Origin: Candidatus Omnitrophota bacterium
GTDB taxonomy: Bacteria > Omnitrophota > Gorgyraeia > Gygaellales > Profunditerraquicolaceae
Length of the DNA stretch: 34,321 nucleotides
NCBI GenBank assembly: GCA_026416665.1
Contig: JAOAET010000032.1
Span: forward strand, 1-34,321
Reading direction: 5' to 3'
Numbering within the stretch: the stretch's first letter is position 1; every line of letters starts with the position of its first letter. This document shows, in pieces, positions 17,297 to 34,321 of the stretch. The translations under genes were made by a program, and so were the position numbers. Under the pieces are notes generated by a model that saw only the letters and a list, made by a program, of their open reading frames with translations, ran no database searches and was not told the DNA's origin.

Positions 17297-19090
17297 TTAT
17301 TCCCACTCTACATTTTCCCTAATAACTTTTGCAGGCACTCCCGCAGCTAAACATTTGGGAGGAATATCTTTGGTAACTACTGAACCTGCTGCAATAATAG
17401 CTCCATCTCCAATAGTCACACCTTTAAGAATAATAGAACGAGTCCCAATCCAAACATGTTTTCCAATATTTATTTCTTTTGCCATCTGGTGCTTACTATC
17501 TAAGATAACATGTGCGTCACAGTCGCGTATTATGACGTCTCTGGCAATCGCACAACCTTCACCGATATTAATTTTTTTTGCACAATAAATCTGCGTACCA
17601 TCGTTACAAAAACCACCATTTAATACTAAAATTCCGTTTCTTACGACTCTTATGTCTGAACCATTGTATATCTCAAACTCCTTATTAACTATAAGTATTG
17701 CATTATCCTCCACTAACAATCTTGTCTCTAAACGTGAATTTTTAATCGTGTGCCAACCGACGATTAAATCTGCATTTAACTTTATAGTTGCCTTTTTGCT
17801 TATGTTCAAGCAAGAGTAACTTAGCGGGACAATAAAATTCATCTCGTCTTTTTTAATATTTTTGTAAAAGAAATTAATTTTTATAAAAGAAAGCCATTGA
17901 CTCAAAGAAAAACCTAAGAAATTAAATACCCTAAAAAAAGCAGAAATCAAAGTTTTCAAGTTATTTAACAAATAATTGTTAAAATTATTACGAAAATATT
18001 TTCTCGCTAGCCTATCAAAATGATAATTGTCTAAGTCTCTAAAAAAATCTTTCCTTTTTTTACACTCTGCTACAGAGTGAAGTAACGCCGGATTTCCACA
18101 AAGGACATCAGATAATTTGCACTGTCGCGCAAATATTTTGTTATTTATTTTCTCAAACAAAGAAATTCCTTTTGGTGAATTTATAATCACCACTGATGTG
18201 CCACAATCATTATCTAATTCTGGATAAATATTCTCTATCCCCCAGAAATCACCGAGACTTATATCGGAAATCCGTGGAATTTTTTTAAATTGACATTTAT
18301 AACATGAAGGTCTCAAGAAACAATTGGCTCTCAAATAACCTCTCATAAACAAATCCTGATGATAATCTTTAAGGTACTGTTTTCCATTAGAAAAAATTAC
18401 TTTGGTTGCAAAGCGATGCCATCCATACGATTTATCCTTGAATTTAATCTTGCTTATCTTAGATTTATATTTTTTCTCGAGCATATTGATATATTTCAAA
18501 AAAACCTTGGGGGAATTAACTCCACGACAAATAAAATCACAAGTAAATAGATTTACATAATCCTTCTCAAGAAAGTAATAAAGCCCTGCTATTTGACAAG
18601 GCGTTGCAGCAACTAATACTATTTTTTTTCTTTCTAAATTATCTTTAATTTCTTTATATAAAGTATTTATATGACTTTGCAAATATTTTGAACCCCTTAT
18701 CTCTTTTAACTTATCGGGATCATCTGTTAAAATATGAACGACTTTTAAATCACTGGTATAAATTGCTCCAGAGACAGCCCCACCGTCATCAAATATCTTT
18801 TCTGCAAGGGCAGAAAAGACTCCTCCAGACGTACTCTGTAAAAGCACTTTTTTATCTTTATTCCACGCTGCATATACTACGGGTGCTTCCAACCGTTCAA
18901 GATATAAAGAGTTTTGACTAACCAATGGACAAGCTTTTTCACAGAGGCGACAATTTATGCATTTTTTAATATCGACCGCTGGATATAAAAAACCTTCATT
19001 ATCCTCGACCATTATAATGCTGCTGTTTGGACAAACGTTTAAACAGGCGCAACAACCAGTACAATTTTCTTTATTAATAATTTTAATCAT
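17297..19090 (-). CDS. Fusion: FrhB-like 4Fe-4S protein with hexapeptide acetyltransferase
   Basis: A 597-residue protein with two unrelated halves and no stop or frame break between them. Residues 1-60 hold two ferredoxin clusters: C10-C13-C16-C20 and C44-C47-C50-C54. Residues about 70-345 match the coenzyme F420 hydrogenase/dehydrogenase beta-subunit family: [10 protein letters not shown] near 85, A-T-P-C-Q-I-A-G-L near 161, and [10 protein letters not shown] near 275. From about 420 to the end is a left-handed beta-helix acyltransferase, with [16 protein letters not shown] (probable catalytic His), I-G-K-H-V-W-I-G and V-T-K-D-I-P-P near the end. The second half should O- or N-acetylate a sugar. 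The redox half has no settled function in glycan loci. Confidence 0.88.
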
Positions 19091-26294: not shown

Positions 26295-27842
26295 TTAAAT
26301 CTCTGCAGAATCAACCACTACCCCTTCTGAAAGCAACTTCTTACTAATTTTTCCACTTGGAGTTTTCGGTAAGCTTTTCCTGAATTCAATAATTTTGGGC
26401 ACTTTAAAATTTTCCAAGTTTTTCTGACAGTGTAAAATAATATCTTTTTCATCTAAAAAAGATTTTTCTTTTAGAACAACAAATGCCTTTATTACATTAC
26501 CAAGTATATCGTCGGCTACACCTACCACTGCTGTCTCAACTACATCGTCTAATTCGTAGATTACATTTTCTACTTCTTTTGGACTCACCATCTCGCCACC
26601 AGTTTTTATGATGTCATCTTTCCGGGAAACAAAATATAAGTAACCTTCTTCATCCATCTTAAAATAATCACCACTATAAAGAATTTGTTCGTTACCATAC
26701 AGCCCTGGTTTAAGACGCTGTGCAGTAAGTTCTGGTTGATTCCAATAACCTTTCATTATCTGTGAACCTCTTATAACTAATTCACCAATGGTATTTGGTT
26801 GAGTAATCCTGTTTCCCTTCTCATCAACAAGCCATACTTCCATATTAGGCATTGCCTTACCTACGGATGTTGGTTTCCTTGTAATTAACTCAGGCTCTAA
26901 ATAAGAAACCCTCTTACATTCGGTCAATCCGTACATAGAAAAAATCTTTACATGCGGAAATAACTCTTTCAATCTGTAGATATGCTTGGGTGGTAATGCC
27001 TGTGCAGTATTGGTTATATACCTTAAACAGGAAAAGTCATATTTATTAAGATTATTTAGCTGTAAAAGAATTGCCGAGATGGCAGGGACAATCGGAAAAC
27101 CGGTCACCTTTTCTTTTAGTATCAAATCAATTATTTGGTAAGGATAAGTAAAGGAACGCTCCAGAATAACTTTTCCGCCGAAGCTAAAAGCCATCAATAT
27201 TTGATAAAGACCGTAGTCAAAAGAAAGTGGTAAACAATCTATAATTATATCGTCTGGGGTGTTCTCCAAGTACTTAGTTATAGAGTTTATCGCAGAGACC
27301 ATATTTAAGTGAGTAAGCATAACTCCTTTGGGATTGCCAGTTGAACCAGAAGTGTAGATAAGACTTGCTAAATCAACATCAATACAATTTTTAGGGGGTT
27401 GGCTGGCAGGAAATCTATCAAGTATCTGGTAAAAATTAAGTTTCCTATCTTGGCTATCTATTAAAATAATTGTTTTTAGATTAGGGCATTCAGCAAATTT
27501 TTCCTTAGCAGATGTGTAATGTTGCGTATCAGTAACTAGTATCTTAATAGAACAATCATTAAGGATGTAAGCTAGTTTATTTGGCTTAGTCTGAGGATTA
27601 ATTACAACGAAAATACCAGAAGCTTTTAGAGTAGCATAAATTGAAATCACTGATTCTACACAATTTTCTAAGTATATACCAACTCTTTCTTGTTTTTCTA
27701 GTCTATAAGCAAGAAAGGCATGGGCAAGACGATTAGAAAAAATATCTATTTGAGCATAAGTAAGACGTTTTCTTCCACAAACTAACGCCTCTTTATCAGG
27801 ATATAGTCTGGCAGTTTTTTCTAATAATTCGTTAATTAGCAT
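26295..27842 (-). CDS. AMP-dependent acyl ligase, exosortase-A-associated type
   Basis: A 515-residue adenylate-forming enzyme. Core motifs occur in order: A3 Y-T-S-G-S-T-G-N-P-K-G (163-173), C-L-P-L-S-F-D-Y-G-L near 210, M-Y-G-L-T-E-C, A7 Y-S-G-D-Y-F, A8 R-K-D-D-I-I-K-T-G-G-E, and A10 K-T-P-S-G-K-I-S-K-K with the catalytic lysine near the C-terminus. It activates a carboxylic acid as acyl-AMP and probably loads the acyl carrier protein encoded just upstream, with which its ATG overlaps by seven bases. The L-E-N-T-P-D-D and P-L-S-F-D-Y-G-L regions recall the AMP ligase of exosortase-A polysaccharide loci. The acid could be an acyl modification of the glycan or an amino acid; the pocket was not analysed. 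Confidence 0.9.
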   Translation of the reverse strand: MLINELLEKTARLYPDKEALVCGRKRLTYAQIDIFSNRLAHAFLAYRLEKQERVGIYLENCVESVISIYATLKASGIFVVINPQTKPNKLAYILNDCSIKILVTDTQHYTSAKEKFAECPNLKTIILIDSQDRKLNFYQILDRFPASQPPKNCIDVDLASLIYTSGSTGNPKGVMLTHLNMVSAINSITKYLENTPDDIIIDCLPLSFDYGLYQILMAFSFGGKVILERSFTYPYQIIDLILKEKVTGFPIVPAISAILLQLNNLNKYDFSCLRYITNTAQALPPKHIYRLKELFPHVKIFSMYGLTECKRVSYLEPELITRKPTSVGKAMPNMEVWLVDEKGNRITQPNTIGELVIRGSQIMKGYWNQPELTAQRLKPGLYGNEQILYSGDYFKMDEEGYLYFVSRKDDIIKTGGEMVSPKEVENVIYELDDVVETAVVGVADDILGNVIKAFVVLKEKSFLDEKDIILHCQKNLENFKVPKIIEFRKSLPKTPSGKISKKLLSEGVVVDSAEI

Positions 27843-28111
27843 AATTTTAGCTTCCTTGACACGTAAGCCGTTATTTTGTGTATAGAATCAAGATTATCAG
27901 GAATAAGTTCCTCGTCTTGAACCTGAAAACCAAAGGTTTCCTCAAGGAAACTGACTAGTTCTAAAACCCCTGTAGAATCTATAATTCCTTTGTCAAGTAA
28001 AGAATTATCATCTTTAAGTTCTACATTTCTAGTTGCGACAAAATTCTTATTTATAAATTCTGTTACTCTGCTCTTTATTTCATTTGCATTAGTTATTTGT
28101 ATCTGTGCCAT
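27836..28111 (-). CDS. Acyl carrier protein
   Basis: A 91-residue acidic helical protein. The phosphopantetheine attachment motif is G-I-I-D-S-T-G-V-L-E-L, with Ser46 as the modified residue. It is followed by the usual hydrophobic helix L-V-S-F-L-E-E-T-F and a late D-N-L-D-S-I segment. It is not the fatty-acid-synthesis AcpP (which has G-A-D-S-L-D) but the stand-alone carrier type paired with AMP ligases. It would carry the acyl group made by the ligase to an acyltransferase, perhaps the hexapeptide enzyme at 17297-19090 or an unseen one. The start has the strongest ribosome binding site in the window. Confidence 0.9.
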   Translation of the reverse strand: MAQIQITNANEIKSRVTEFINKNFVATRNVELKDDNSLLDKGIIDSTGVLELVSFLEETFGFQVQDEELIPDNLDSIHKITAYVSRKLKLC

Positions 28112-32684: not shown

Positions 32685-33473
32685 TTACAAGTACCGGTAA
32701 ATATATGCCGGTATGTGATATTGAATATTGGTCAAAATATAGCCTAATAGTTTTGCCTGTGCTTGTTTTAATAAGCCTTGTGCGTGGCTGACTACACCGC
32801 GCTGGGTCCTGCCTGCTTGAATAACCATAATCACCCCATCACTTTGTGCACCTATTAAACCTGCGTCTGTAACAGGTATAACCGGTGGTGAATCGAGAAT
32901 AATATAGTCGTATTTCTCTTTAAGAACATTCAAAAGATTCTTAAACTTAACTGAACCTAAAAGTTCCGCAGGATTTTGAGGCGGTTTTCCTGCGGATAAT
33001 ATCGTGAGGTTATTTATCCCAATACTTACAAAGGCATCTTCAGTATTTATGCGTCCTGTAATTAATTCTGATAAACCTGCTTCCTGCTCAAATCCCAGAT
33101 ACTTGTTTACTTTACTACGACGCAAGTCCGCATCAATTAAGAGTATCTGTTTTTTGTTTAAATCCTGAGCCATAGAAATAGCTAAATTTATACTGGTAAT
33201 GGTTTTCCCTTCACCATTAATGGAACTGGTAATAGTAATTATGTGTAGAGGCCGTTGGGCATTAAGCGCCAACAAATTAGTGCGTAAGATACGAAACTGC
33301 TCAGCAATAGGACAGCTGGGCTCGTAAAACGTAACTATCCGCGGGTCGATCTTTGAATCAACTGTCTTCTGGGCAATAAACTGGTAACGAACTTCTGATT
33401 TTGAGTCTAACTTCTCTAATCTTGCCATTCTCTCTTCTGCTGCTTTTCTTAAGGCATCGGTAATTTTACCCAT
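32685..33473 (-). CDS. CpsD/CapB-type tyrosine kinase (P-loop ATPase)
   Basis: A 262-residue cytoplasmic BY-kinase domain without its membrane partner fused. M-G-K-I-T-D-A-L-R-K-A is the usual start in polysaccharide loci. The Walker A is T-S-S-I-N-G-E-G-K-T (82-91), with N where P is usual. Walker A' is L-L-I-D-A-D-L-R-R (111-119) and Walker B is I-I-L-D-S-P-P (191-197). The C-terminus has only a short tyrosine group (Tyr252, 257, 259, 261). It controls chain length or export by cycling phosphorylation together with a Wzc/CpsC-type membrane protein, which should lie beyond the right edge. AAGGAA precedes the ATG. Confidence 0.92.
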   Translation of the reverse strand: MGKITDALRKAAEERMARLEKLDSKSEVRYQFIAQKTVDSKIDPRIVTFYEPSCPIAEQFRILRTNLLALNAQRPLHIITITSSINGEGKTITSINLAISMAQDLNKKQILLIDADLRRSKVNKYLGFEQEAGLSELITGRINTEDAFVSIGINNLTILSAGKPPQNPAELLGSVKFKNLLNVLKEKYDYIILDSPPVIPVTDAGLIGAQSDGVIMVIQAGRTQRGVVSHAQGLLKQAQAKLLGYILTNIQYHIPAYIYRYL

Positions 33474-33496: not shown

Positions 33497-34321
33497 TTAT
33501 AATTTTGTCTTTACAACAGAATCACTATTACAGTGTAAAAATTGAACACAACTATTACAGCAAATTTGTCTTTCGTTTTTCTTGCCACGTATCCATTTAA
33601 GTTCGCAGTTGTAATAATGAATACATTGACAGCAACATTGTATCTGAAGACTCTCTTGTGCCGAATTAAGTTGTTCAGGCTGTTCTATCCAAGAAGCAGA
33701 AACATCTCTTTCACGCAGTACCTCCCTAACAATCTGAGCAGTGATAAGTTTTTTGTTATAGATAAAACCTGAAAGAAGCGCACTGTCACAGACTAAATTA
33801 ATAACCCGTGGAATCCCTTTGGAGTAATCATAAATAAGCTCAATTGCTTCTTGAGAAAAAATTGATTCGTAACCGTTTTCACAAACAAGACGCAGACGAT
33901 GCAAAATATAATCTTGCGTCTCTTGTCTATTAAGTGGGTTAATATGATAGTAGACGGCAATTCGTTGACGAAACTGTTCTAATTTAGGATTATTTAGTTT
34001 CAATCGTAAATCTGGTTGTCCTAAAAGAATAATCTGAATAAGCTTTTCTTTTTCGGTCTCCAAATTAGAAAGCATCCGTATCTCTTCTAATACCTTGAAA
34101 GTTAAATTTTGCGCCTCATCAATAATTAATACGACATTACTATCTTCGGCTAACTGCGTTATAAGATACTTGTTCAACCGAGAAAGCAATTTTTGTTTAG
34201 TCAAACCTGTAATTTCTACTTCAAACTCTTCTAATATAGAAGCTAATAACTCTTTCGAGGTCAGATGGGTATTGGTAATTAAAGCAACTTTAGTATTGTA
34301 ACTAAGTTTATTGAGAAGACT
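33497..34321 (-). CDS. ExeA-like AAA+ ATPase with cysteine-rich tail (cut by right edge)
   Basis: The frame is open to base 34321, so the N-terminus, including the Walker A, is outside the window; the TTG at 34204 is an internal codon. The first visible residues (L-L-N-K-L, then V-A-L-I-T-N-T-H-L-T-S-K-E-L-L) and V-V-L-I-I-D-E-A-Q-N-L as Walker B match the ExeA/GspA-like ATPase found in exosortase-A polysaccharide loci. F-R-Q-R-I-A-V-Y-Y-H and K-G-I-P-R-V-I-N-L-V-C-D are further family blocks. The last 46 residues carry two copies of C-C-x-x-C-x5-C, at 33605-33637 and 33530-33562, a possible metal site. The role is ATP-driven control of export or assembly. Confidence 0.88.
   Translation of the reverse strand, partial: SLLNKLSYNTKVALITNTHLTSKELLASILEEFEVEITGLTKQKLLSRLNKYLITQLAEDSNVVLIIDEAQNLTFKVLEEIRMLSNLETEKEKLIQIILLGQPDLRLKLNNPKLEQFRQRIAVYYHINPLNRQETQDYILHRLRLVCENGYESIFSQEAIELIYDYSKGIPRVINLVCDSALLSGFIYNKKLITAQIVREVLRERDVSASWIEQPEQLNSAQESLQIQCCCQCIHYYNCELKWIRGKKNERQICCNSCVQFLHCNSDSVVKTKL
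33530..33637 (-). repeat. Duplicated 11-residue cysteine motif in the ATPase tail
   Basis: The encoded blocks C-C-C-Q-C-I-H-Y-Y-N-C (33605-33637) and C-C-N-S-C-V-Q-F-L-H-C (33530-33562) have identical cysteine spacing and are separated by 14 basic residues. DNA identity between copies is limited, so this is a protein-level repeat. Confidence 0.8.

Follow-up and report, generated by a model that had tools for sequence, protein, structure and literature searches.

ATPases of the XrtA/PEP-CTERM type, which are described by the model TIGR03015, are encoded in polysaccharide loci where a chain-length determinant and a tyrosine autokinase (BY-kinase) flank the ATPase and an exosortase is found in the genome. 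The Zn2Cys6 binuclear cluster is built on a repeated CX2C with a third cysteine. A precedent for the spacing CX2CX5C is provided by WhiB1, in which C37, C40 and C46 are ligands of a [4Fe-4S] cluster (PMC6282962). The same spacing has been described for RseC of E. coli, which serves Rsx, a homologue of Rnf, and carries an oxygen-sensitive [4Fe-4S] cluster (PMC11729352). In C. ljungdahlii, rseC is located upstream of rnfC and acts as an activator of rnf, and its relative MucC has been tied to alginate regulation (PMC9124969).

Here, we analysed a DNA stretch of 34,321 nucleotides from a Candidatus Omnitrophota bacterium (the window), which represents an entire contig (C53) and ends with the gene of an ExeA-like ATPase. 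The reading frame runs off the contig end, and because the contig ends inside the gene, the N-terminus and the Walker A motif are absent from the data. In a profile search the protein matched positions 63-265 of TIGR03015 with a score of 218.6 bits, and PF13401 (AAA_22) was matched as well (1e-18). Two full-length relatives with the same C-terminal tail scored 307.7 and 300.6 bits, below the curated cut-off of 324.5, and the entire core of the tailed ATPase can be aligned to the model. The cysteine-rich domain described below lies C-terminally beyond the end of the model. The ATPase as such is nearly universal in the phylum (280 of 368 genomes with a match at E<=1e-60), and most copies are tail-less. 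A second ExeA-like ATPase lacking the cysteine tail is encoded in the same genome next to an HD-GYP-like gene (L002:1276-2184, plus strand).

The surroundings of the gene are those expected for an XrtA-type ATPase. The BY-kinase downstream of it reached 169.2 bits against TIGR01007 (cut-off 108) and is also the 3' neighbour of the tailed ATPases in L041-L045 and L053. A chain-length determinant is located upstream of the ATPase in relatives, matching TIGR03007 with 87 bits as a partial gene in L041. The exosortase (PF09721) is present in the window's own genome, and in G393 and G248 it shares a contig with the tailed ATPase. The rest of the window encodes glycosyltransferases, Wzy-like and Wzx-like proteins and sugar-activation enzymes and is therefore a polysaccharide locus. 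Within it we also noted a 597-residue protein combining a ferredoxin/FrhB-type part with a hexapeptide acyltransferase-like C-terminus (17297-19090, minus strand) and an AMP-binding enzyme beside an acyl-carrier-like ORF of 91 residues (26295-28111, minus strand).

Table 1. Positions of the ATPase, its tail and associated features (window coordinates unless a locus is given)
Feature	Position	Strand	Remarks
BY-kinase, polysaccharide biosynthesis tyrosine autokinase, downstream of ATPase	32685..33473	-	TIGR01007
ATPase, XrtA/PEP-CTERM-type (ExeA-like AAA), 5'-truncated	33497..34321	-	TIGR03015, PF13401; contig end
Stop of ATPase	33497-33499
End of ATPase core			about residue 205
Variable linker, ATPase core to Cys domain	33638..33706	-	identity and dN comparison
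Cys block 1, CCCQCIHYYNC, residues 229-239	33605..33637	-	all four Cys kept in each of 12 tails and 70 free proteins
Spacer ELKWIRGKKNERQI, 14 residues	33563..33604	-	KWxRG conserved; tail-specific Q before block 2
Cys block 2, CCNSCVQFLHC, residues 254-264	33530..33562	-	Cys invariant save one His in one free protein
Shorter double-CC paralogue, f12	L283:2972-3124	-
Shorter double-CC paralogue, f12	L284:3019-3174	+
Shorter double-CC paralogue, f12	L285:3041-3199	+

The C-terminal residues of the ATPase read ...QCCCQCIHYYNCELKWIRGKKNERQICCNSCVQFLHCNSDSVVKTKL. An initial annotation had reported two blocks with equal cysteine spacing between 33530 and 33637 at the end of this protein, and both the coordinates and the fit to C-C-x2-C-x5-C proved correct. 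It had further described 14 basic residues between the blocks; the length holds, but the spacer is only mildly basic, with five basic and two acidic residues. As a whole, the tail forms a compact domain with eight cysteines, an internal duplication of the C-C-x2-C-x5-C unit.

We found that the same eight cysteines are kept in 81 of 82 distinct sequences carrying the domain (12/12 tails and 69/70 free proteins, in which the domain is not joined to an ATPase), with profile E-values down to 1e-26, which exceeds what chance would produce. The consensus, CCxxCQxYWTCETKWYRGExxEENxCCxxCxYYxxC, runs through the domain without gaps. The spacer tryptophan is nearly as constant (12/12 tails, 64/70 free proteins). 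In the divergent family f15 the KWxRG motif is lost and all eight cysteines remain at the same spacing; cysteine ligation is therefore the invariant property and probably the core function of the domain.

That no such tail is known for ExeA-like ATPases, as the initial annotation had remarked, was borne out by our searches, in which neither the family libraries nor the PDB gave a match and most homologous ATPases lacked the tail. Tail-only, wide and deep alignments retrieved nothing significant from Pfam, NCBIfam or the PDB; in the PDB, alignments A1 and A4 had no sequence match and A2 a single chance match (E 0.88). Two AlphaFold runs (mean pLDDT 63.5 and 64.5) yielded no confident fold. The profile searches for the domain covered Omnitrophota. 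When contigs across phyla were scanned for the eight-cysteine DNA pattern, the matches listed included four real domains, all of them from Omnitrophota, the remaining ones listed being mostly chance or poly-Cys reading frames. No relative of the domain was detected on plasmids, phages or viral contigs. The domain constitutes an unnamed Cys8 family in a poorly known, uncultured phylum.

In a first set of 58 relatives, four further ATPases were tailed with all eight cysteines, and order- and phylum-wide searches brought the total to 12 Omnitrophota ATPases, each with identical spacing. Close homologues (L007-L010, L220) have intact cores from which the tail is cleanly absent, several tail-less homologues being 64-75% identical, and the tail is therefore dispensable for the core enzyme. 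In a tree of 56 cores, tails occur in two clades, namely family f23 (4/4) and the surroundings of the window (8/14). At least two gains or losses are forced on this tree, and the fewest that explain it are five. The glutamine before the second CC (Q24) is present in 12/12 tails and 0/70 free proteins, and this shared residue favours a single origin of the tail with subsequent clean losses; the domain tree cannot settle the number of fusions, because a domain of 36 residues is too short.

The absence of the tail from several close homologues could be taken to mean that it is a non-functional extension. Of the two signs of this named beforehand, tail-less close homologues and random loss of cysteines, the first was found in some homologues and the second was not seen in any tail, so that the outcome is mixed; absence is clean, no relics were found beside tail-less sister ATPases, and we encountered no decayed tails. 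All eight cysteines are kept in every tail across two ATPase clades. Moreover, the linker between core and domain (17-26 residues) often shows only 17-28% identity between tailed pairs, with dN about 1, close to random, whereas the tail retains 44-86% identity with dN of 0.07-0.56, and the core is held more strongly still. For pairs involving the window, the linker has 22-27% identity and dN >1, compared with dN of 0.2-0.3 for the core and about 0.56 for the tail. Since dS was mostly saturated, we relied solely on the contrast between regions, which shows that purifying selection acts on the tail. A non-functional extension is very improbable.

The domain is not restricted to ATPases. Using a profile of five tails, we found it as a free, single-copy protein of about 51-70 residues in other Omnitrophota orders, and a profile of 40 sequences detected it in 103 of 384 genomes of the same class (9 tails, 88 free proteins and 6 divergent f15 members). 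The free gene is divergent from rnfC in 52 of the 53 pairs on the same contig, 44 of which lie within 500 bp. Of the 88 genomes that encode the free protein, 72 also have rnfC, compared with 153 of the 296 that do not encode it (Fisher p 3e-7, without phylogenetic correction). The head-to-head arrangement was seen in L051, L055, L289, L290 and about 40 further loci; in the rnf region, the free gene is a small, conserved gene that lacks an annotation. On its other side, a convergent MFS transporter gene is often found. Other contexts include CheC-like genes (f36) as well as a NifU-like gene and others (f28).

Tail and free copy were found together in none of the sampled genomes, an absence that is not statistically compelling by itself. 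Free copies may be hidden by the incompleteness of MAGs. For f36 genomes, in which the free protein is present, no ATPase match was reported; free protein and ATPase therefore do not always act together. On these grounds we rejected as sole explanation a functional link based on the fusion alone, with the free protein acting on the ATPase.

The eight invariant cysteines in two equal units fit two four-cysteine metal sites. Zinc or Fe-S binding had been proposed for nine cysteines and histidines together; the eight cysteines at invariant spacing in 82 divergent sequences lend this good indirect support, but conservation does not extend to the ninth cysteine (the third of CCC) or to the histidines. 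Judging from this pattern, the domain very likely binds metal, and a regulatory or docking role on the ATPase is probable. Overall, the best explanation, with a probability of roughly 0.6, is a module with two metal sites (Cys4+Cys4, zinc or [4Fe-4S]) that would regulate or dock the ATPase. Zinc and [4Fe-4S] are indistinguishable from these data. In ancestors of some Omnitrophota, the domain was joined to the C-terminus of the polysaccharide ATPase, where it would most likely tie assembly or activity of the enzyme to metal or redox state or to a partner, e.g. the chain-length determinant or the tyrosine kinase. A similar task in Rnf electron transport is probably performed by the free homologue, whose gene lies head-to-head with rnfC. 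The rnfC synteny is a strong clue, the fusion would tie metal or redox chemistry to the synthesis of envelope polysaccharide, and both open the functions of the free protein and of the tail to direct testing.

A metal-free disulphide switch or thiol relay might be suggested by the vicinal cysteine pairs and by the fact that some free copies, in L064 and L066, have a thioredoxin-like gene in their vicinity. However, bonds within vicinal CC pairs are rare, and neither the ATPase nor the free homologue has an evident export signal, so that both are presumably cytoplasmic in anaerobes. A metal would better fit the eight invariant cysteines, and we consider the switch improbable.

If the metal is zinc, the domain could be a purely structural module (two zinc sites or a two-zinc cluster) for protein-protein or membrane docking without any sensing. 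All-cysteine ligands, CxxC knuckles and the two-fold repeat resemble the logic of Zn2Cys6, the partners of the ATPase are encoded alongside it, and docking needs no redox chemistry. We give this reading a little less than an even chance. Pure docking in polysaccharide export would not account for the synteny between the free gene and rnfC. Compared with Zn2Cys6, which is eukaryotic and has six cysteines with a CX6C spacing, the domain has eight with CX5C and no Pfam match.

The alternative metal site, an oxygen-labile, redox-active [4Fe-4S] cluster in each half, would make the domain a sensor. The free protein would then control rnf in the manner of RseC or WhiB, as their functional analogue, while polysaccharide export would follow the redox state through the fused copy. 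The CX2CX5C spacing shared with WhiB and E. coli RseC is consistent with such a sensor, as are the head-to-head position with rnfC and the situation in C. ljungdahlii, where rseC upstream of rnfC activates rnf and MucC is linked to alginate (PMC9124969). True RseC is rare among these bacteria (5/30 genomes above cut-off, 0/9 tailed genomes). Nevertheless, the metal is not set by spacing alone and Pfam matches to RseC or WhiB are lacking, and we hold the sensor reading only tentatively. The broader proposal is that redox-sensing Fe-S proteins with two clusters form a family of their own, which controls Rnf energy conservation in its free form and, through the fusion, places polysaccharide export under the same redox control. 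It appears unlikely at present; such a family would so far be seen only in Omnitrophota.

The likeness to RseC/MucC (PF04246) is confined to the CX2CX5C of the E. coli protein and the tie to Rnf. RseC has one cysteine motif and two transmembrane helices, whereas the eight-cysteine domain has two cysteine units, and the five RseC proteins found in Omnitrophota have CxxCx2C instead. Homology to RseC was rejected, with an hhalign probability of 0.2% and no PF04246 match at E<=1 among 40 domain members. Like the free eight-cysteine protein, WhiB-like (Wbl) proteins are small and combine C-x2-C-x5-C with a more distant cysteine, and the Wbl ligand spacing was recovered in the domain alignment (last cysteine of block 1-x15-C-x2-C-x5-C). 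However, Wbl proteins are found only in Actinobacteria, the domain has two cysteine units and lacks the GVWGG motif, and the WhiB Pfam model matched none of 40 members at E<=1.

In family f50 (L049; L277:3096-3521, plus strand) the domain is N-terminal to an apparent two-helix membrane segment. This pairing is in line with the [4Fe-4S] sensor and gives the f50 fusions an RseC-like layout without homology to RseC. Finally, three f12 genomes encode a second, shorter double-CC paralogue (MMCCEICPRYVACEEEEHLNDLCCVSCSDYKSC) with an acidic tail, which adjoins a conserved gene set including a probable glycosyl hydrolase.
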